DNA of 48,035 bases, taken from contig CALVBO010000009.1 of assembly GCA_944325835.1 (NCBI GenBank), positions 1 through 48,035 of the forward strand, in the 5' to 3' direction. The first letter of the stretch is position 1. Every line of letters starts with the position of its first letter. Of this stretch, positions 3,801 to 48,035 are shown piece after piece. Source of the stretch: Candidatus Gastranaerophilales bacterium (GTDB lineage: Bacteria; Cyanobacteriota; Vampirovibrionia; Gastranaerophilales; Gastranaerophilaceae). Below the pieces are notes generated by a model. The model worked only from the letters and a program-made list of their open reading frames with translations. It did no database searches and was not told the DNA's origin. Made by a program: the position numbers and the translations under genes.

Positions 3801-3890
3801 ATGAAAAACCGAAAAGTAAGGATTTTATCAGGGGGGGGGGGGAGCCGCTCAACCGGTAAATCCCGTGCCTTAGACACCATGTCATCCTGA
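3801..3890 (+). CDS. Leader ORF of locus B crossing the G tract
   Basis: ATG at 3801 sits 7 nt after AAAGGA. It reads MKNRKVRILSGGGG and stops at TGA 3888. It matches the leaders of loci C and E in promoter, ribosome-binding site, basic start and G run. With 12 G it does not enter the prepilin frame. With 11 G it would enter that frame but stop at TAG 3871. This locus therefore looks disabled, or it depends on a downstream start. Confidence 0.55.
   Translation: MKNRKVRILSGGGGSRSTGKSRALDTMSS
3831..3842 (+). repeat. Poly-G tract (12 G), locus B
   Basis: A run of twelve G inside the leader ORF, a typical substrate for slipped-strand phase variation. Three equivalent tracts occur in this window, each in the same place relative to a prepilin gene. 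Confidence 0.85.
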
Positions 3891-23593: not shown

Positions 23594-23668
23594 ATGAAAA
23601 AACAGAGGAATGTATTAAAATGTACGGGGGGGGGGGGCGCGTGCCTTACCCGCCCAATTAGGTATTGA
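23594..23668 (+). CDS. Leader ORF of locus C crossing the G tract
   Basis: ATG 23594 is 7 nt after AAAGGA and reads MKKQRNVLKCTGGGG, stopping at TGA 23666 with 12 G. With 11 G it would run on without a stop for 80 codons into the prepilin segment at Phe codon 23877. As assembled the locus is out of phase. Confidence 0.65.
   Translation: MKKQRNVLKCTGGGGACLTRPIRY
23626..23637 (+). repeat. Poly-G tract (12 G), locus C
   Basis: Twelve G within the leader ORF. Deletion of one G or insertion of two joins the leader to the prepilin frame. Confidence 0.85.
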
Positions 23669-39305: not shown

Positions 39306-40952
39306 CTATTCCCTATGTTTCAGACCTTCTGCCTTTACTATCGGATAATCTGTTGTGAGGTTTTCTACAAATTCTCTTTCAAGATCCGGATCAAGTTTGC
39401 GTAAATCAAGTTGTACATTCATAAATGTATTTCTTGATTGATCGATATTCATATCTTTAAATCTGATGACTTTACCGGTTTTTGGGTCGAGTTCATATAT
39501 ATGTGATTGATATTTTTTAGTTAGGAACTCAAGAATTTTTCTTCTTGAACTAATGTTTTGTGGGGTTGCATTTTTAACCATACCCTGAATGCTTTTTACA
39601 AGGGAATACTGATAAAGGCTTGCCAGAATGTCCGCGTTATTTGAGTCATTTATAAAATCACTATAAACATCAAAGAATTTCGGATTATAAAGCGGTCTTT
39701 GGGTTATCGGATCAAAATGGGTTACGAAATCTTCAACTGTAAGAGCCACGCCTTTTCCCTTGGCAAAAGCAATGATGTCTTTAACTAATCCGAGCGGGTA
39801 ATTAAAGAATACCGGCGGATTTTCAAGATCTCTTTTGACGGTTTTCCAGCCGTACTGCATGTTTTTGGAATGAGCGTTTCTTGCCCAATCATTCATAGCC
39901 CAGAAGCTTTTCATTGCAACAGATTGTTTTTGATCCAGTGCAAAAGGGTTGGTTAGGTTTGCAAAATCAAAATTTTTGAAACCGTTGCGCGACATGTGTT
40001 TACTTAGTGCTTTTTTGATATTATCTGCAGATTTGAGATTCCAGGCACGTTTTAAAACTTCTGTGAAAATAAGTTTTTGTTCCGGATGTTTTTCATAAAA
40101 TTCGCGCTGCCGTTGTGAAATATTGTAGCAAGCCTGCGGGTTTTCCTGATAGTAGCGGATTAAGCCTTCGGAAATATGTTTTTTGTGCAGATCAGATAGC
40201 GGCTTACGCGGGATATAAACCGGCTCGCCTTCTGCCTGAGCGGCTTTTCTATCCATGGTTTCCATTCGCTTTTCGGCCATTTCGCGCGTAAGGCGGGTAT
40301 TATACTCTTCATCTGACAACTTTAGATACGCGCCGTAGTGCTGGTCGCGTTTCGGAATATTTAACCTGTTCAACAGGTAGTTAATATCCTTGCCTTCCGT
40401 GTAGGTTTTCAGGTCTGTAAGAGAAAAACCGTCGCCCCAGTAGAGTTTGATTAACTGGACGGAAAGATCTTCATCTTTTGTAAAATAAGAGTTTTCCCCG
40501 TTGACGAGTTTATGCCCGTAGGTTCCGGGTGCGAATTCAATATCTGATGCGCTTTTTACATCATCAAAGAGTTTATCTTCTTTGAATAAAGCTTTTATTT
40601 CTTCAAGCGAAGAGCATTCCTTCAGCTTTCCGAAAATTCTTTTGTGCACGTCAACCAGCTTGAGGTTTTCGGGGTTGCCCGCGTGGATAATAGCCTCTGC
40701 TGCTTCTTTTACTTTTGGCGGGAAGATTGTATCCATTTTGTTGAACTGCGCACCGAGGAACTCAAGGTTTTCAAGCGTTGCCTTGAGGTTGAGGGACGCA
40801 CCGCCGTTAAAGTTTATTAAAAACGCAGCGTTATTAGCCGGTACGGTATTATACTGCTGCTTTACCGTGATTGTTTTTTGTGCGTTGTGTTTCGTGTTTA
40901 CGTAATTAGTATAAGGGTTAAATGTTATATTATTAATAGTGTTTATTCTCAT
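39306..40952 (-). CDS. Large protein of unknown function with NUMOD-like segment (tandem pair, first gene)
   Basis: The 548-residue protein starts MRINTINNITFNPYTNYVN, sharing INNI and an Asn-rich N-terminus with its downstream partner, and has LINFNGGASLN near residue 50. Residues about 255-300 (HKKHISEGLIRYYQENP, then SQRQREFYEKHPEQ) resemble the small helical NUMOD3-type DNA-binding motif seen next to homing-endonuclease domains. No nuclease motif is visible. It has no signal peptide. It could be a DNA-binding or effector-like protein; the evidence is weak. Confidence 0.72.
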   Translation of the reverse strand: MRINTINNITFNPYTNYVNTKHNAQKTITVKQQYNTVPANNAAFLINFNGGASLNLKATLENLEFLGAQFNKMDTIFPPKVKEAAEAIIHAGNPENLKLVDVHKRIFGKLKECSSLEEIKALFKEDKLFDDVKSASDIEFAPGTYGHKLVNGENSYFTKDEDLSVQLIKLYWGDGFSLTDLKTYTEGKDINYLLNRLNIPKRDQHYGAYLKLSDEEYNTRLTREMAEKRMETMDRKAAQAEGEPVYIPRKPLSDLHKKHISEGLIRYYQENPQACYNISQRQREFYEKHPEQKLIFTEVLKRAWNLKSADNIKKALSKHMSRNGFKNFDFANLTNPFALDQKQSVAMKSFWAMNDWARNAHSKNMQYGWKTVKRDLENPPVFFNYPLGLVKDIIAFAKGKGVALTVEDFVTHFDPITQRPLYNPKFFDVYSDFINDSNNADILASLYQYSLVKSIQGMVKNATPQNISSRRKILEFLTKKYQSHIYELDPKTGKVIRFKDMNIDQSRNTFMNVQLDLRKLDPDLEREFVENLTTDYPIVKAEGLKHRE

Positions 40953-41046
40953 AGTGGGAGATATAAAATCCCTGAATAAAAATTTTTGCGCCTATGTGTA
41001 GAAATGTTAAGGGAATTATAATGGTGCTGTCTTTATATTGTCCGAG

Positions 41047-41116
41047 AAAGGCTCGCGATAAGGAACGTGGTGTGAATGAGTTGCAGAGCAACTCCCGCTC
41101 ACGCACGCGAGCCTTT
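41047..41116. repeat. Long inverted repeat with nested hairpin
   Basis: AAAGGCTCGCG (41047-41057) pairs perfectly with CGCGAGCCTTT (41106-41116). Inside is a second perfect hairpin, GAGTTGC-AGA-GCAACTC (41078-41094). It lies in the gene-free stretch 40953-41406 upstream of the DGR target. Confidence 0.7.
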
Positions 41117-41160
41117 AGAGTGGCGTATTAGACAGCGCAGCCGCAAACGGCTCGCAGTTC

Positions 41161-41191
41161 AGCGAGGCGGTGCGGCGGAGAACTGCTTTAT
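41161..41191 (+). repeat. Dispersed repeat, copy 2
   Basis: Matches 17198-17228 over 31 bases with one difference. Confidence 0.6.
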
Positions 41192-41196
41192 TTGTC

Positions 41197-41217
41197 ATGC
41201 TGAACTTGTTTCAGCAT
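41197..41217 (+). repeat. REP-like palindrome upstream of the DGR target
   Basis: ATGCTGAA and TTCAGCAT pair around CTTGT, the same loop as the units in leaders C and E. Confidence 0.7.
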
Positions 41218-41341
41218 CTGTCCAGCGACGCGAGCTATCGGTAACGTTGGACAGATCCCGAATCGAGTTCGTGATGACTGTAATTTGACGCTTACATCAT
41301 AAATGATTGTAACATTTTGTAAACGTATTTTTAATTTTCTA

Positions 41342-41370
41342 TTGCCTACGTATACAACAAGATTTATAAT
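41342..41370 (+). promoter_or_regulatory. Promoter of the DGR target, locus D
   Basis: TTGCCT, 17 bp, TATAAT, followed by AAAGGAG at 41390-41396 before ATG 41407. Its -35 differs from TTGACW at B, C and E, and its leader lacks their 5' hairpin. Confidence 0.7.
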
Positions 41371-41406
41371 TATTGTATGAGTTAATCAGAAAGGAGTTAT
41401 ACTGGA

Positions 41407-41487
41407 ATGTACATGAAAAACGAAAAAGCTGAAAACCCTTGTAGTATGGGGATTTCGACCCGGGGGGGGGGGGGGGCGACCGACTGA
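41407..41487 (+). CDS. Leader ORF of the DGR target crossing the G tract
   Basis: ATG 41407, and in frame ATG 41413 (MKNEKAENPCSMGISTR), follow AAAGGAG and lead into 15 G, stopping at TGA 41485. With 14 G the frame would continue RPTEQPNWLISKWLGKF, then KPAAA and the prepilin segment at Phe codon 41543. This gives a prepilin leader of about 43 residues from ATG 41413. Confidence 0.7.
   Translation: MYMKNEKAENPCSMGISTRGGGGATD
41462..41476 (+). repeat. Poly-G tract (15 G), DGR target
   Basis: The longest G run in the window, directly between the start codon and the prepilin coding frame. Loss of one G or gain of two would fuse them. Confidence 0.88.
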
Positions 41488-41548
41488 ACAGCCCAACTGG
41501 CTAATATCCAAGTGGCTAGGTAAATTTAAGCCTGCAGCAGCGTTTACT

Positions 41549-42529
41549 ATGGCAGAAATACTTTTGTCATTAACTATTATTGGCGTTGTTGCGGCTATCA
41601 CATTGCCTTCATTGACAGGTAATATCAACGAGCGTACATGGAATACGCAGCGTAAAGCTCTTTATGCTCGTTTTTCTCAAGCGCTTTCTTTGATGCCAAA
41701 CCTGAATGGCTACGGTACATTACATGCAGCCGGCACTTCTACGGATGAAGACGGAAGTGTAACTTCTGTAGATGCTGAGGATGACGCTGCTATGGCATTT
41801 TTGACAGAAGGACTTACAAAAGTATTAAAAACTACTAACCTGTGCGACTATGATGCGTTGGAAGATTGCGGTATCCCGGATACTATCACTGCGATGAACG
41901 GGGATGTTTTAAGTAATTTTACAACCAGTTACAATACATTGGTAGCTTTCAACAGTATGTTTGACGGCACCTATAACGCGTCTAATGCTGACGGTACTAC
42001 AACTTCATATACGTACAGCCAATTAGATACCAAAGCCGCAGCGTTTGAAACTGCAAACGGCGAATCAATTCTTGTTTACTACAACCCGAATTGTGTCGCA
42101 GATATGCAGGAAACAGGCTGGCATTACACTCAGCCAAAAATGTGCGCAAACTTTGTGTACGACTTAAATGGTAACAAAGGCCCAAACACAGTCGGTAAAG
42201 ATATCGGCTTTATTACGGCGTTGTATCCGTCAGATCCGGTTGTTGTAGCACCGCTGCCAATGGCTTCAAATGCAGGCTCTTCTGCACAGACAGAAGCCGG
42301 AGCACTTTGTAAAAAACAAGACAGCGAAGCTAGGCTGCCAAATCGCGATGAACTGTCAGCCATGTTCTATAATAGAACTCTCCTAGGTATTGCGTCCGGT
42401 GGCTTTTGGTCTGGCTCTGTCATTTCTTCTGGAGAGTCTGGCACAGCATGGAACCAGAATTTCAATACGGGCTACCGCCGCCCGGGCACGCGGTCCAGTA
42501 GCCTCAATGTGCGGTGCGTCAGGAGATAA
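41549..42529 (+). CDS. DGR target: prepilin-like adhesin with variable C-terminal domain, locus D
   Basis: This is the prepilin-like paralogue with all blocks intact. Phe at codon 41543 is +1 and the Met at 41549 is +3, so FTMAEILLSLTIIGVVAA forms the N-terminal helix with Glu at +5. NINERTWNTQ follows, then AFETANGESILVYYNPNC, NFVYDLNGNKGPNTVGKD, ARLPNRDEL, and the C-terminal GFWSGS...NVRCVRR. The last domain has the RLP...W...RCV pattern of DUF1566/Lcl-type C-type-lectin-like folds, the classical DGR target fold. Variable codons give residues 285 (G), 309 (Y), 311 (R), 313 (G), 317 (S) and 319 (L), numbering from 41549. All six are AAC/AAT (Asn) in the template. Expression needs the upstream G tract to shift by one, unless translation starts internally. 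A pilus-associated display protein is the likely role. Confidence 0.9.
   Translation: MAEILLSLTIIGVVAAITLPSLTGNINERTWNTQRKALYARFSQALSLMPNLNGYGTLHAAGTSTDEDGSVTSVDAEDDAAMAFLTEGLTKVLKTTNLCDYDALEDCGIPDTITAMNGDVLSNFTTSYNTLVAFNSMFDGTYNASNADGTTTSYTYSQLDTKAAAFETANGESILVYYNPNCVADMQETGWHYTQPKMCANFVYDLNGNKGPNTVGKDIGFITALYPSDPVVVAPLPMASNAGSSAQTEAGALCKKQDSEARLPNRDELSAMFYNRTLLGIASGGFWSGSVISSGESGTAWNQNFNTGYRRPGTRSSSLNVRCVRR
42392..42529 (+). repeat. DGR variable repeat (VR)
   Basis: Aligned with the template repeat at 44514-44651 (offset 2122) over 138 bases without gaps. It differs at 42401, 42402, 42473, 42479, 42480, 42485, 42486, 42498, 42503 and 42504; every one is A in the template. The stretch 42403-42472 is identical. 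The GC-rich end (GTGCGGTGCGTCAGG, 42509-42523) fits an initiation-of-mutagenic-homing site. Just beyond it one non-A difference (42524) turns the template TGA into AGA. Confidence 0.95.
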
Positions 42530-42750
42530 GTTATTTAGTCATTCCGCGTTTTTCGAAACCGAAAGAGCTATTAACAAATCTCACATCGAATTTCCAAAAC
42601 CTGACCTAAATATTTAAAATTACAATTTTTAATTATTTAATAAGCGTTAAACCTCACGTTAAATACCAATCTATAATTTAATTATAAGGCTAAAACGCCC
42701 GTAGGTCAAGGAAATACGGTAAAAATACGCCAAACGAATGATATCGAAAT

Positions 42751-42779
42751 TTGACAACAAAATATGATTAGCACATATC
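42751..42779 (+). promoter_or_regulatory. Promoter of candidate small RNA
   Basis: TTGACA, 17 bp, CATATC, in the gene-free stretch after the DGR target. Confidence 0.45.
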
Positions 42780-42785
42780 CGGAAA

Positions 42786-42870
42786 CTTTGTAAATACAAA
42801 GTTCAAGGACGGGTTAATCCAGGTTAAACGCAAAAATCCGTCGTTTACCGGCGGATTTTTGCGAAAATTT
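42786..42870 (+). ncRNA. Candidate small RNA downstream of the DGR target
   Basis: The predicted start is about 42786. Near the 5' end is an AACTTTG-TAAATA-CAAAGTT hairpin (42784-42803). It ends at a strong terminator, CGCAAAAATCCG (42829-42840) pairing with CGGATTTTTGCG (42852-42863), then AAAATTTTT. No ORF or strong ribosome-binding site was seen. No family is recognised. Confidence 0.4.
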
Positions 42871-42911
42871 TTACAGGTAAAATTTATTTGTCCGTATATT
42901 GGCATATTGTC

Positions 42912-43105
42912 ATCCCGAATTTATTTCGGGATCTGTCCAACGATACCGGTAGTATGCACCACTGGTCAGATCCTGAATCTGTCTTGGATTTGCTCCACGC
43001 TCGCAGGATTTCGCCTAAGGAGCTTTGCTCCAAGCGGCTCAATCTGCTCGCTATCCGGCTTTCTCTTCGTTCAGCCGTACGCAAATCCGCAAGTTCAGGA
43101 TGACA
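42912..43105 (+). repeat. REP-like repeat cluster between DGR target and avd
   Basis: A perfect ATCCCGAA/TTCGGGAT hairpin lies at 42912-42932, followed by repeat-derived sequence ending in AAGTTCAGGATGACAG. I see no gene in 42530-43580. Besides this cluster it holds the small-RNA candidate and two terminator-like hairpins; 43105-43230 and 43275-43430 show nothing I can name. Confidence 0.55.
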
Positions 43106-43231
43106 GATTGAGAATAACGCTATATTGTGGAACAAAAAACTTTGCTTGTACGGTTTATACACCGTTGTCCAATTTACTTGCGGTATTTTCCAGGTTATAC
43201 AGTAATTGTAAATTCGGATTTAGTATAAACC

Positions 43232-43271
43232 AAGACTCGTGTATTAAATCCAACTTGCGCGAGTCTTTTCT
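43232..43271 (+). terminator. Terminator-like hairpin
   Basis: AAGACTCGTG (43232-43241) pairs with CGCGAGTCTT (43258-43267), followed by TTCTTC. No clear gene feeds it. Confidence 0.4.
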
Positions 43272-43431
43272 TCAACTTTGCCAGTACTTGCGGTACCGGC
43301 ATACAAAAATTTTTTTTTCGTGTGAACAAAAACAACAACAATTTCTATCCTTTCAGTTGAATTTAGACACACGTAAACCGGACTTAATCTTTAATATACC
43401 CGATATACTTAACGGCTAAGTTCGGTCTGCA

Positions 43432-43462
43432 TCTGCGGAAGAGTTCTCTTCCGCAGAGCCTT
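43432..43462 (+). terminator. Terminator-like hairpin
   Basis: TCTGCGGAAGAG and CTCTTCCGCAGA form a 12-bp stem, followed by GCCTTTATTAT. Confidence 0.6.
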
Positions 43463-43492
43463 TATTATGCAATGGCGTTCTGTTTTCATCAC

Positions 43493-43521
43493 TTGACAAA
43501 CTTATATAAATAGTTGATAAT
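43493..43521 (+). promoter_or_regulatory. Promoter of antisense RNA
   Basis: TTGACA, 17 bp, GATAAT; close to consensus. Confidence 0.65.
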
Positions 43522-43527
43522 AACAAT

Positions 43528-43645
43528 ATAGGGAAGAGCCCTTAAAGCTTAATCTCTAGTTTAAGGACTCTCTTCATGCCCTATAACAAAGTTAAAATGA
43601 ATTTAAGGACTGCTATAACTGCAATTATAGCAGTCTTTATTTGTT
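43528..43645 (+). ncRNA. Candidate antitoxin antisense RNA
   Basis: It begins with a hairpin at 43533-43575 (GAAGAGCCCTTAAA pairing with TTTAAGGACTCTCTTC, one bulge). It ends with GACTGCTATAA-CTGCAA-TTATAGCAGTC (43608-43635) and a T-rich tail. It overlaps most of the small ORF on the opposite strand, so it could pair with the 3' part of that mRNA as in type I systems. A 32-codon ORF (ATG 43576) on this strand has no ribosome-binding site. Confidence 0.5.
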
Positions 43646-43655
43646 CCTTTGTCAT
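43581..43655 (-). CDS. Small hydrophobic peptide, candidate type I toxin
   Basis: The 24-residue peptide starts MTKEQIKTAIIAV and ends LKFILTLL. It is one predicted membrane helix with a short charged start and one internal Lys, resembling small toxins of type I toxin-antitoxin systems. The ribosome-binding site is unusually strong: AGGAGGTGAGGAA directly before the ATG. Its own near-consensus promoter lies at 43734-43762, giving a leader of about 70 bases. The overlapping plus-strand RNA with its own promoter is the presumed antitoxin. No homologue could be searched; a small membrane protein without toxicity is the alternative. Confidence 0.55.
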   Translation of the reverse strand: MTKEQIKTAIIAVIAVLKFILTLL

Positions 43656-43733
43656 TTCCTCACCTCCTCTCTGACCGATTTCTTCATATAATCGTGTGTG
43701 TCAGCGGAAGTGGAAGGCACTTACCCTGTCGGT

Positions 43734-43762
43734 ATTATAGGTTAATGTTTTATATTAGTCAA
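43734..43762 (-). promoter_or_regulatory. Promoter of the candidate toxin
   Basis: Minus strand TTGACT, 17 bp, TATAAT. Confidence 0.65.
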
Positions 43763-43807
43763 CGGGCTGATTTTTTAGCAAAAACTATAACAAAAATTAA
43801 CATTCGG

Positions 43808-43836
43808 CTGACAAATCAAATTCGGCGTGTTATATT
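43808..43836 (+). promoter_or_regulatory. Promoter of avd-TR-RT
   Basis: CTGACA, 17 bp, TATATT; AGGAGAG follows just before the avd ATG. Probably drives avd, the template RNA and the reverse transcriptase. Confidence 0.5.
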
Positions 43837-43872
43837 ACATCTGTAATTAGTTTTCCAGGAGAGTTAGAAAGT

Positions 43873-44241
43873 ATGGCACGGTATGAACATCTGCCTATTT
43901 ATAAAACTACGTACGATTTGTTTATAGATGTATTGCAGGTGACTAAAACCTTCCCTAAGGATTACAGATATACTTTAGGGGAACACTTTCACCACTCTGC
44001 TATTAAACTACTTAAGCAGGTGTATATAACTAATACAGCAAAAGACAAGGCGGAATCTTTGAAGCTTTTACTGTGTTATATACAGGAATTGGGCGTTCTT
44101 ATTCGAGCTGCTCACGACCTTAAAATACTGGGTGATAACCGATTTTTTGCGTTGATTCAAAAACGTGACAGTTTGGAAAAACAGTCAACAGGTTGGTTAA
44201 AATCTTTTGAAAATACGGCCAGAGTCTGCTCTTCAGTGTGA
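43873..44241 (+). CDS. avd: Avd-like DGR accessory protein (four-helix bundle)
   Basis: Avd is a basic four-helix-bundle protein that binds the DGR reverse transcriptase and template RNA and is required for mutagenic homing. The 122-residue protein has the family layout: YEHLPIYKTTYDLFIDVLQV, TFPKDYRYTLGEHFHHSAIK, LLCYIQELGVLIRAAHDLKI, and a last helix RDSLEKQSTGWLKSFEN. This pattern is shared with the 23S-intervening-sequence four-helix family. Position immediately upstream of a template repeat and reverse transcriptase makes Avd the best reading. ATG 43873 follows AGGAGAG. Confidence 0.88.
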   Translation: MARYEHLPIYKTTYDLFIDVLQVTKTFPKDYRYTLGEHFHHSAIKLLKQVYITNTAKDKAESLKLLLCYIQELGVLIRAAHDLKILGDNRFFALIQKRDSLEKQSTGWLKSFENTARVCSSV

Positions 44242-44513
44242 GAGCAGAGCGTGCTATTTTATCTCGTCGGCAGCGGTTGGCGGGGTCAACCGCCTCTTAT
44301 AACTGGTTGGACGTTAAAAAGTAACGATTAATCTTTTATTGTGAGGAGGTTTCGTGCCAACAGAAGTCAGGAGCCCCGGCTCTTGAGTCGGCATTATGAA
44401 TGGATTTTGCAAAAACGCATTGCACCTGCCCGTGACCGGGGATGACGGAAACGGGGTTCAGGTAAAAATGCGGTAAGTATTCGTTTATCTTGTCGATTTT
44501 TGTCTGCCTCCAA

Positions 44514-44651
44514 GCGTCCGGTAACTTTTGGTCTGGCTCTGTCATTTCTTCTGGAGAGTCTGGCACAGCATGGAACCAGAATTTCAATACGGGCAACCGC
44601 AACCCGAACACGCGGTCCAATAGCAACAATGTGCGGTGCGTCAGGTGATAA
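44514..44651 (+). repeat. DGR template repeat (TR)
   Basis: This is the unmutated copy of the VR, between avd and the reverse transcriptase as in classical DGRs. It holds about 34 A; ten are changed in the VR. Read in the VR frame it encodes G-N-F-W and N-R-N-P-N, with AAC/AAT codons at every variable site; A-to-N changes there cannot create stop codons. It continues to TGA, so it is not itself a gene end. Upstream 44242-44513 has GC-rich hairpins (44278-44297; GAGCCCCGGCTC near 44372) that may structure the template RNA. Confidence 0.95.
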
Positions 44652-44708
44652 AACAGGAGATTTTAACTTTCTTTTTTGACTGCCTTCAACCCGGGTGGAT
44701 ATCTGGAA

Positions 44709-45914
44709 ATGGCAAAAGACAAGCATAAAAAACGTAGATTCAAAAACGTTAATTTCAAGTTGGATTTTACAATAGAGGACCTTTATAAGGCTTACTACGA
44801 GTGCAGAAAGCGCAAACGTTCTTCACTTTCCGCTATGGAATTTGAATTTGACCTGGAGTCTAATATGATGAAGCTTTATGATGAGCTGAAGTCCGGTGAG
44901 TATAAAATCGGCGTCAGCATTTGTTTTGTCGTGCTCAAACCCAAGCCGCGTGAAGTTTGGGCTGCCTCTTTCAGGGATAGAATTGTTCACCACCTTGTGT
45001 ATAATGCGATTAAGGACAGATTTTACGCGACCTTTATAAAGGATACTTTCAGCTGTATCCCCGGCAGAGGTACGCTGAACGCTGCCAAAAAAGTCGCTAA
45101 ATACGCCAAGGCTGTTACGCACGATTACACAAAAAAAGCTTATTACCTCAAGGCAGACTTGAAGAATTTTTTTGTTTCAATTGATAAAAATATTCTCTAT
45201 GAGTTGCTTATCAAACGGATTCCGGAACCGTGGCTGAGGGAATTGATACGGCAGATTGTCTATCATAACCCGAAGGATAATGTTATTGTTCAGTCGCCGC
45301 AGTGGAAATTTAACCTGCTTCCGTCCTACAAAAGCCTGTGGAACTGTCCGGCTGACAAGGGACTGCCAATCGGAAATCTTACAAGCCAGTTCTTTAGTAA
45401 TGTTTATCTCGATATGCTTGATCAGTTTGTTAAGCACGAGTTGAAATGCAAGTATTACTGCCGCTATGTAGATGATTTCGTAATTATGGATGAGTCGCCC
45501 GAAAGACTTAATTACTGCTATGACCGAATCGCGGATTTTATTTCGCAAAACCTGCTTATTGTCCTGCACAAAGATAAAAAGACGGTTAACCTCGTTTCTA
45601 ACGGAATTGATTTCGTGGGATATGTCGCAAAACCAAATCGCTTCTATCTGCGCCAAAGAACGTTAAGGGATATTTTCCGCCTTGTAAGGCGCTACGAAAA
45701 CGGTGTTTACGATATCGGAGAAAATGTTCTTGAGTGGCTTGCGTCCGTCTTTAACAGCTATGTCGGAATGCTTCGGGCTACAAACGGATACAAACTCCGA
45801 AAACGTATCTGCCAGACAATTACGTACCCGTTTTACTATCCGGCAAAAGATTTTACCTGCGTCCGGCAGGCGTTTATTCTTAAAAGACTCTGGGACTACG
45901 CAGGTGTAGCTTGA
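44709..45914 (+). CDS. DGR reverse transcriptase
   Basis: This error-prone reverse transcriptase copies the template RNA with adenine misincorporation and feeds the cDNA into the VR. From ATG 44709 it has 401 residues. The fingers and palm motifs are in order: PRE-VWAASFRDRIVHHLVY, YYLKADLKNFFVSID, the DGR-type motif GLPIGNLTSQFFSNVYLD (218-235), the catalytic CRYVDDFVIMDE (Tyr253-Val-Asp-Asp256), LLIVLHKDKK and IDFVGYVAKP. There is no endonuclease or maturase domain, which separates it from group II introns. A TTG start at 44676 would add 11 residues, but it abuts the TR and lacks a ribosome-binding site. Confidence 0.96.
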   Translation: MAKDKHKKRRFKNVNFKLDFTIEDLYKAYYECRKRKRSSLSAMEFEFDLESNMMKLYDELKSGEYKIGVSICFVVLKPKPREVWAASFRDRIVHHLVYNAIKDRFYATFIKDTFSCIPGRGTLNAAKKVAKYAKAVTHDYTKKAYYLKADLKNFFVSIDKNILYELLIKRIPEPWLRELIRQIVYHNPKDNVIVQSPQWKFNLLPSYKSLWNCPADKGLPIGNLTSQFFSNVYLDMLDQFVKHELKCKYYCRYVDDFVIMDESPERLNYCYDRIADFISQNLLIVLHKDKKTVNLVSNGIDFVGYVAKPNRFYLRQRTLRDIFRLVRRYENGVYDIGENVLEWLASVFNSYVGMLRATNGYKLRKRICQTITYPFYYPAKDFTCVRQAFILKRLWDYAGVA

Positions 45915-45967
45915 TGCGGGGCGGCCGTCATTCTAAAGTCGGGCGGTTTCGATTGTTGGTTTACAAT

Positions 45968-45996
45968 TTGCCTTTTTTCCCTGCTTTTTGTAAAAT
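45968..45996 (+). promoter_or_regulatory. Promoter of the TPR gene
   Basis: TTGCCT, 17 bp, TAAAAT, 28 bp before the ATG. Confidence 0.5.
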
Positions 45997-46023
45997 AATA
46001 TTATATAGCATGCAGGATTTTAG

Positions 46024-47616
46024 ATGAACACAACTCAACAACTGGAAAAGAAAATTAATAAATCTTACAGATCAGGAAACGTAAAAAAAGCCATTGAACT
46101 TTGCCAGACGGGCTTGAAAGACGACCCGACTAACGCGGATTTACATATTCGGCTCGGCGATCTTTATCTTGCTTGGCATATTGATATTTCTAACTCCTGT
46201 CAGTATATTGACGATGCAATTACGGAATACCAGATTGCGCTGGAATCTTATCTTGACTCTGCACTGGTATATTTTAAGATAGGACAGGCGCTTTTCTATA
46301 AAGGCGAGCTGGATAAATCTGTAAACTACCTTAATACAGCGCTTTCTAAAGATGATAAGCAGCCTAAAGCTTACTATATTCTGGCGCAGATTTATGCTAA
46401 AAAAGCAAGATTTCAGGAGGCAATCGACTACACGCTTAAAGCTATAAAATGCGCACCGTTTAAGGCTTCTTCTGCTAGGTACCTCCTTGCAAGTCTGTAT
46501 GAGCTTTCCTCTTACAAGGCACTTTTGAGAAGATGTCTGGCTAAATGGGAATATGTCCTTGCTGTTTTAACGTTTCCGTTTGATGATATGGCGCTTGGAT
46601 ATGTTTCAAAAGTCATTGCGAATATGAAATTCTTTCCGGCTCTTTTTAGGGCATATATGAATATTCAGCGCCAAAAGTATGATGAGGCTCTGGAAATCTA
46701 TTTGAAAATTATTGATCAGGCTCCGGGCTTTACGCCTCTTTATTGCCTTCTGGGTGATGTTTATCTGGCACTTGGAAGATTTGAGGACGCTATTACCGAG
46801 TACAAAATGGCTATCTGGCTCGATACCCTGAATATTCCGGCTTACAAACACCTTTGTCAGGCCTATGAAGAACAGGGCGATTTCGACAGCGCCGTTGATA
46901 CGTATAACAAAATTTTGAAAATTACGCCTAATCTGCCTGAGGTTCACGCAAATCTCGCAAATATTTTATACGTAAAAGGCGACATTAAAGGCGCAATTTC
47001 CCACTTCCAAACTGCGGTTACGTTAAATCCGCGCAAAAACTGGACAAGTGTTGTTAATCAGACTCTCGGGTTTGTTTTTCAGGAGTCGACCAATGACCTT
47101 GACGCCGCAATAAGCTCTTATCAGAGCGCTTATCTTTTAACGCCGGAAGATATTGACGTTTATATCAATCTTGGAAGTGCTTTTTATGACAAAGAAGATA
47201 TTGATAACGCTCTTGCCGTATACAGAAACGCTCTGGAACTGGATCCTACAAATGCCAGAATTCACTGTAATTTAGGCTTTCTGCACTGGGGCAGGGGTGA
47301 TCTGGATGAAGCCGTTACGGAATACGAACTTGCCATAAAATATGACCCGAATTATGACATTGCCTATAACAACCTTGGCGTAATCAATCTGGATGATTTA
47401 GGACGTGTTGCACGGGCAATTGAACTTTTCAGAAAATCCGTGGAATGTAATCCGAACTATGCGCTTGCGCATTTTAATCTTGCACGTGCCGTAACAATTA
47501 CGGGTGATAAGATTGAAGCTGCAAAGCTTTACCAAATTGCGCAGGATGTGAATAACGTTACAAACGAGATGGATCCACAGGAAATTACGGATAAGATTAA
47601 TGAGTTGTTCGCATAG
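46024..47616 (+). CDS. TPR repeat protein
   Basis: The 530-residue protein is composed of tetratricopeptide repeats from residue 15 (YRSGNVKKAIELCQTGLKDD) to the end, for example DALAVYRNALELDPTNARIH preceded by DIDN, and ELAIKYDPNYDIAYNNLG. The spacing of the canonical W/L-G-Y-A-F-A-P positions is clear. A less regular stretch at about residues 150-215 (LRRCLAKWEYVLAVLTFPFD) may be an insertion or a membrane-associating hairpin. There is no signal peptide. It lies between the DGR reverse transcriptase and prepilin locus E with its own promoter; a link to pili is possible but unproved. Confidence 0.88.
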   Translation: MNTTQQLEKKINKSYRSGNVKKAIELCQTGLKDDPTNADLHIRLGDLYLAWHIDISNSCQYIDDAITEYQIALESYLDSALVYFKIGQALFYKGELDKSVNYLNTALSKDDKQPKAYYILAQIYAKKARFQEAIDYTLKAIKCAPFKASSARYLLASLYELSSYKALLRRCLAKWEYVLAVLTFPFDDMALGYVSKVIANMKFFPALFRAYMNIQRQKYDEALEIYLKIIDQAPGFTPLYCLLGDVYLALGRFEDAITEYKMAIWLDTLNIPAYKHLCQAYEEQGDFDSAVDTYNKILKITPNLPEVHANLANILYVKGDIKGAISHFQTAVTLNPRKNWTSVVNQTLGFVFQESTNDLDAAISSYQSAYLLTPEDIDVYINLGSAFYDKEDIDNALAVYRNALELDPTNARIHCNLGFLHWGRGDLDEAVTEYELAIKYDPNYDIAYNNLGVINLDDLGRVARAIELFRKSVECNPNYALAHFNLARAVTITGDKIEAAKLYQIAQDVNNVTNEMDPQEITDKINELFA

Positions 47617-47708: not shown

Positions 47709-48035
47709 ATGAGAAATCGAAGTGTAATGATCTATGCAGGGGGGGGGGGGGAGCCCTGAGCCGGCCACTGAGTGGCATCCACAATGCGACCCGGGCAAGA
47801 AATTAACGAAAGAAGTTTTGGTTCCGAGCGACTGGACCGCGAAAAATCCATATTGTCACCCTGAACTTGATTCAGGGTCTGTCCCATGTTGCGAGCTACC
47901 GGTATCGTCTGACAGATTCCGAAACAAGTTCGGAATGACACCGGCTGAGCCGATTCTATGTTTGGACAGCGGGCTGTCGGTCAAGAAATGTGGTTTTACG
48001 ATGGCCGAAATATTACTGTCATTAACGATAATCGG
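47709..48035 (+). CDS. Prepilin-like gene, locus E, phase-variable leader (3' end outside window)
   Basis: ATG 47709 lies 10 nt after AAAGGA and reads MRNRSVMIYAGGGG, stopping at TGA 47757 with 13 G. With 12 G the frame is open for 81 codons through SPEPATEWHPQCDPGKK and repeat-derived sequence to the prepilin segment at Phe codon 47995 (GFTMAEILLSLTII), where the window ends. Gly at -1 fits prepilin peptidase. The stretch SGLSVKKCGFTM matches GRLSVKKCAFTM of locus A, so A and E are closely related in their leaders. The C-terminal domain is not visible. Confidence 0.7.
47739..47751 (+). repeat. Poly-G tract (13 G), locus E
   Basis: Thirteen G in the leader ORF; loss of one G brings the start into the prepilin frame. 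Confidence 0.85.
47858..47936 (+). repeat. Paired REP-like palindromes in leader E
   Basis: ACCCTGAA/TTCAGGGT (47858-47878) and ATTCCGAA/TTCGGAAT (47916-47936) stand in opposite orientation about 40 bases apart, like a paired REP element. Similar pairs are at 3884-3962 and 23743-23822. Confidence 0.7.

Follow-up and report, generated by a model that had tools for sequence, protein, structure and literature searches.

In the DGR of phage BPP-1, a hairpin/cruciform lies in the target immediately downstream of the variable repeat (VR) and is built, in the part of Guo et al. 2011 that treats it (PMC3240598), from a GC-rich stem of 7-10 bp and a 4-nt loop. Outside the model phages, little is described in the open literature that we searched on how transcription of DGR target and template is separated or regulated. 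Here we analysed a window of 48,035 nucleotides, which is contig C9 of a 1.95-Mb Gastranaerophilales genome (G000), with a focus on an RNA element downstream of a DGR target that we term E1 (42745-42866, + strand). Judged from its sequence, E1 is a real, clade-limited folded RNA element whose 3' part is an intrinsic terminator, and it is ordinary in kind.

Set against the part of the BPP-1 report that describes the hairpin/cruciform (PMC3240598), E1 shares with it an inverted repeat downstream of a VR, but lies too far from the VR, has another stem and loop, and is not kept with the DGR. Like intrinsic terminators of the two-way A-tract/U-tract kind, it has A and U tracts on either side of a stem with a GC core; unlike them, it carries a long, imperfect and conserved hairpin next to the terminator. 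Its size, 5' hairpin, single-stranded middle and terminator recall a bacterial small regulatory RNA (sRNA), from which it is set apart by the lack of a convincing promoter in this genome, of a partner among the DGR segments searched, and of any occurrence beyond three genomes. As a separate observation, the DGRs of genomes G043 and G022 (L079 7968-8020 and L081 294-340) contain a GC-rich inverted repeat, GCGCGATTTT/AAAATCGCGC, seen by eye ~25-35 bp past the VR, which is perhaps a local version of the BPP-1 hairpin.

The target gene belongs to a standard DGR

The neighbourhood is a standard DGR, with a reverse transcriptase (RT), Avd, a template repeat (TR) and a VR with mismatches at TR adenines, all encoded on the + strand. 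The target (41549-42529) is prepilin-like and has an Lcl_C-like C-terminus that scores below the Pfam cut-off. Its VR (42392-42529) matches the TR (44514-44651) at 92%, and 10 of the 11 mismatches fall at TR adenines. The avd gene (43873-44241) reaches 47.5 bits with the Pfam bAvd model (cut-off 40) and 47.1 bits with the NCBIfam Avd model, below that model's cut-off of 80, and the RT gene (44706-45914) matches RVT_1 at 3.3e-16. A DGR RT was found in all seven genomes of the genus. A record titled Fusobacterium sp. (NALB_7963_5; L088) carries this Gastranaerophilales DGR as well and is probably misnamed.

E1 joins an imperfect hairpin to an intrinsic terminator

A preliminary description of this site had proposed a separate RNA of about 85 nt, delimited by promoter-like boxes with 17-bp spacing, a 5' hairpin and a 12-bp terminator stem followed by T residues, without an ORF and 220 bp after the VR. 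Hairpin, position and absence of an ORF are borne out: an apical hairpin (P4) is present at 42784-42803, the TTGACA box lies 222 bp past the VR end at 42529, and neither strand of 42700-42880 contains an ORF of 8-60 codons with an upstream Shine-Dalgarno-like word. The terminator was placed correctly (42829-42863), but its stem has 15 pairs and the T run comes only past AAAA. The terminator scan gives 8 G-C pairs and a loop of 5, then AAAATTTTTA, i.e., a GC-rich stem-loop followed by a U run. As the U-tract lies mostly within the stem, this terminator is of the two-way A-tract/U-tract kind and readable on both strands. In 40900-46100 the scan lists 10 terminator-like sites, compared with 5.1 in shuffles. 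This one heads the list and is the first on the + strand past the VR, with no other between VR and E1.

The stretch 42780-42875 folds at -31.9 kcal/mol, compared with -17.25 (sd 2.83) for shuffles, none of 200 being as good. This excess is mostly owed to the terminator, since 42745-42828 without it has a z-score of only -2.44 (4 of 200 shuffles as good). From the VR to 42755 no RNA structure was found. Folding of 42745-42866, or of the three-sequence alignment of G000 with its relatives G004 and G001, predicts two further helices that enclose the apical hairpin. In P1, UUUGAC (42750-42755) would pair with GUUAAA (42823-42828), and in P2, 42766-42774 would pair with 42812-42819. The A-rich internal loop between their 5' strands (42756-42765) is invariant and faces invariant bases, a feature that a plain terminator does not explain. 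P1 and P2 are themselves invariant in all three genomes and thus show no covariation; across E1, 1 of 41 pairs covaries, which 160 of 500 shuffles equal with these three sequences. The apical hairpin keeps its pairing in spite of sequence drift, with one U-A to C-G replacement. P1 is part of the minimum free energy fold of G000 but missing from its centroid, and it is also missing from a G001 fold made without the last base of the arm. Shuffling the 5' block only gave folds matching E1 in 86 of 2000 cases for G000 and 9 of 2000 for G001, and shuffling the 3' block only did so in 254 and 21 of 2000, respectively. With invariant strands, covariation within the range of shuffles, P1 absent from the centroid and these block-shuffle counts, the predicted P1/P2 helix is likely, not proven. 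Rfam (release 15) yielded no match in the window at the gathering threshold and nothing credible at E values up to 5, where the one sub-threshold match had 24 bits against a threshold of 100.

The apparent -35 box fits one arm of a predicted helix

The proposed promoter corresponds to TTGACA-17-CATATC at 42751-42779. Its '-35' (42751-42756) is perfect in all three E1 genomes, while the '-10' of G000 and G004, CATATC, matches at 3 of 6 positions. The resulting 9 of 12 is at chance level in both genomes, and the pair is not listed by the promoter scan. When the + strand of 42530-42790 was dinucleotide-shuffled, 690 of 1000 shuffles contained at least as good a pair; for 42745-42790 alone, 133 of 1000 did. 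G001 has TTGACA-17-CATAAT at the same place, a match of 11 of 12 that 7 of 1000 shuffles equal; the step between this state and that of G000 is a single base, an A in the '-10'. Thus, of the boxes described earlier the first stands and the pair is at chance level in G000, so that the promoter of a separate RNA is unsupported there, with a candidate one in G001.

If P1 and P2 pair as predicted, the '-35' forms the 5' strand of P1, and that of P2 falls within the supposed spacer. The longest run identical between G000 and G001 in 42530-43872, 31 nt at 42746-42776, covers '-35' and spacer and breaks inside the '-10'; another invariant block, on the far side of the hairpin, is a potential pairing partner for it. 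The coding region also has identical runs of 26-30 bases, but is three times longer. In the folding model, the '-35' block is better accounted for as an arm of an RNA helix. The case calls for caution, as a -35 hexamer, even a perfect one, may belong to such a helix.

Conservation and spread of E1

E1 is found at the same position in G004 (97%) and G001 (86%), and thus, with G000, in three of the seven genus genomes. The two hairpins are kept in these close relatives, which argues that the RNA element is real. The conservation asked of them does not extend to the DGRs of the other four genomes (G002, G003, G005 and G006), which keep the DGR and lack E1. In G003, G005 and G006 the homology that starts at the VR ends at 42752; in G002 it is lost already at 42548. 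In all four, the sequence runs straight into another hairpin/terminator region, at that distance the terminator of E3 (described below) or, in G002, another hairpin, so that some terminator lies between target and avd in all seven genomes. Between G000 and G001, E1 is 87.4% identical overall, compared with 77.6% for the adjoining non-coding stretch upstream. By block, identity amounts to 92.3% at 42745-42783, 60.9% in the apical part (42784-42806), 95.5% at 42807-42828 and 94.1% in the terminator.

The exact 16-nt core of E1 occurs in three of 383 genomes sampled from the order. A covariance model of E1 (R1) matched 21 of 383 family genomes at E <= 0.05, with three full matches (132-157 bits) in the three E1 carriers and 18 matches of 24-35 bits. 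Alignments of five of the 18 were inspected; four are essentially the terminator and one also aligns a different hairpin, so the weak matches inspected are mostly two-way terminators. As the R1 search was run with strict filters, it may miss weak relatives. A DNA search of the family with E1 gave hits in 23 of 146 genomes at E <= 0.01, those in the 20 genomes outside the three carriers spanning 19-50 bases. Full-length E1 was not found outside the genus by the covariance and exact-core searches (383 genomes each), and the idea that its hairpins might recur near other DGRs is not upheld by the former. In its own genome, the window is the only full-length place; the next forward match has 80% over 40 nt, in what reads as coding sequence. 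Exact patterns run against IMG/VR and searches of phage DNA gave no E1 match. Missing at four DGRs of the genus and without a full-length match beyond it, E1 is not a general DGR part, and a single gain in one clade appears to be the simplest history.

E1 as a possible folded end of the target message

Since no + strand terminator-like site precedes that of E1 past the target, and E1 has no good promoter of its own here, it is most simply accounted for as the folded 3' end of the DGR target mRNA together with its terminator, insulating or stabilising; we give this reading an even chance. RNA polymerase would exit the target gene, transcribe a ~220 nt unstructured leader and then the E1 stem and terminator, and stop. 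E1 would protect the message end and would prevent transcription of the target from reading into the avd-TR-RT operon, which lies 1 kb downstream. We infer all three elements of this reading, namely the extension of the target mRNA to E1, its 3' end at that site, and a benefit from insulation or stability. In its favour, some terminator lies between target and avd throughout the genus, few 5'-block shuffles fold as well, the invariant blocks are the two mutually pairing arms, and the apical hairpin drifts with pairing kept. The sample of three sequences, the weak covariation, the 254 of 2000 3'-block shuffles in G000, the absence of P1 from some of the folds and the promoter score of G001 speak against it.

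That score, 11 of 12, is the reason why we keep a stand-alone sRNA of ~80-90 nt in consideration, doubtful as it is. Such an RNA would use a sigma-70-type promoter at 42751-42779, the 5' hairpin, the conserved single-stranded GGGUUAAUCCAGGUUAAA as a seed and the terminator at 42829-42863. The perfect -35 of all three genomes, the missing ORF and the conserved 42807-42828, which between hairpin and terminator would suit a seed, agree with it. CATATC in G000 and G004 does not, 9-of-12 pairs being expected by chance; moreover, conservation spans the spacer and stops at the -10, the reverse of an opposite-strand promoter nearby, where the hexamers are fixed and the spacer is free. Duplexes of E1 with eight DGR segments (target 5' end, prepilin start, target coding sequence, VR, antisense VR, TR, avd start and RT start) did not beat shuffles, with z-scores of -1.0 to 1.2 in a crude test that used mononucleotide shuffles and no accessibility term. 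There is thus no support for E1 acting on the DGR through base pairing, be it on the target mRNA or template RNA, as once suggested, or on the VR. The same null result, together with the narrow spread and the lack of an Rfam family, weighs on the unlikely reading of E1 as a regulatory 3'-UTR RNA, cut from the target mRNA as a released 3'-UTR-derived sRNA or acting within it on stability, in favour of which stands the invariant A-rich loop opposite invariant bases.

Two further readings are less probable still. Chance hairpins, without function beyond or even including termination, would agree with the low covariation; we consider them improbable, given that E1 is more conserved than the adjoining stretch and folds better than 200 of 200 shuffles. 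A DNA-level DGR element like the BPP-1 hairpin/cruciform appears very improbable indeed, for although E1 is a stem-loop downstream of a VR, its stems start 221 bp away (P1 at 42750), and four DGR-bearing genomes of the genus do without it.

A predicted promoter on the opposite strand faces the VR

A predicted promoter on the - strand, TTGACC-17-TATAAT at 42681-42709, points into the VR, antisense to the target. Its hexamers are kept in all seven genus genomes (TTGATT in G002), and the invariant columns comprise 6 of 6 in the -10, 4 of 6 in the -35 and 5 of 17 in the spacer, compared with 77 of 240 in the whole stretch. Of 300 shuffles per genome, 0-3 reached its best score in six genomes; in G002 37 did, so that this genome taken by itself is not beyond chance by score. 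Lying 129-190 bp beyond the VR across the genus, it would start an RNA antisense to the target 3' end and the VR. Being conserved and directed at the VR, it would open transcription-coupled control of DGR homing to testing.

We rejected this promoter as a general DGR feature. Of 49 RT loci, 12 had a VR that could be placed locally (10 by an A-bias filter, G001 and G003 by other evidence), seven of them from the genus and five from elsewhere; among the latter, four are at chance and G022 has 10 of 12 (35 of 300 shuffles).

Other elements between target and RT

Two more elements lie on the + strand of the interval. E2 (43141-43273), a second hairpin/terminator-like element with a structure drawn by eye only, occurs in the same three genomes as E1. 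E3 (43319-43467) is an older structured RNA with a terminator and covarying helices; five genus genomes have it at their DGR locus, and a sixth has it in part. In the five sequences, 15 cells are changed on both sides of a pair, compared with 6.5 in shuffles, none of 500 being as high. The covariance model R2 detects E3 in six of seven genus genomes (G005 partially, 50.8 bits), with two weak matches of 27-28 bits elsewhere in the family. With its covariation and its presence in most of the genus, E3 is, like the opposite-strand promoter, a better target than E1 in the same kilobase, and the greater interest lies in the whole locus, not in E1 itself. The target-avd interval might even be a riboregulatory hub of the DGR, in which a genus-wide promoter would drive antisense RNA through the VR, structured sense RNAs (E3 in most of the genus, E1 and E2 added in one clade) would end or buffer the target message, and transcription of the VR on both strands would tune target expression or the access of mutagenic cDNA; we regard this as distinctly unlikely.

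The conserved E3 loop AUCCUUUC resembles an anti-Shine-Dalgarno sequence. By eye, 7 bases are complementary to the target Shine-Dalgarno GAAAGGA; as no significant duplex of E3 with the target 5' end was obtained, we do not claim this pairing.

To the right of E3 lies a cassette that resembles type I toxin-antitoxin systems (43493-43762). A - strand promoter (43762-43734) and the Shine-Dalgarno sequence GGAGG precede a hydrophobic ORF of 24 aa (43655-43581), and a + strand promoter (43493-43521) with a terminator (43604-43639) predicts an overlapping antisense RNA. The 24-aa peptide has no NCBIfam match; its counterpart from a paralogue at G000:C3:104627-104845 is also 24 aa long and shows two differences.

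Poly-G tracts and the target reading frame

A run of 15 G (41462-41476) lies between an upstream ATG of the target (41407, Shine-Dalgarno GAAAGGAG) and the prepilin frame. Tracts of 11, 14 or 17 G leave a frame of 372-374 aa open, and the 15 G of this genome lead to a stop at 26 aa; the tract counts 12 G in G004 and 11 G in G001. From these tract lengths, the DGR target seems to be not only hypermutable but also subject to phase variation by slippage. The window holds three other runs of at least 8 G, at 3831-3842, 23626-23637 and 47739-47751 (12, 12 and 13 G). All three sit shortly past an ATG with a GAAAGGAT-like Shine-Dalgarno sequence, and target-like sequence is found near at least two of them, possibly marking a phase-variable prepilin-like family.
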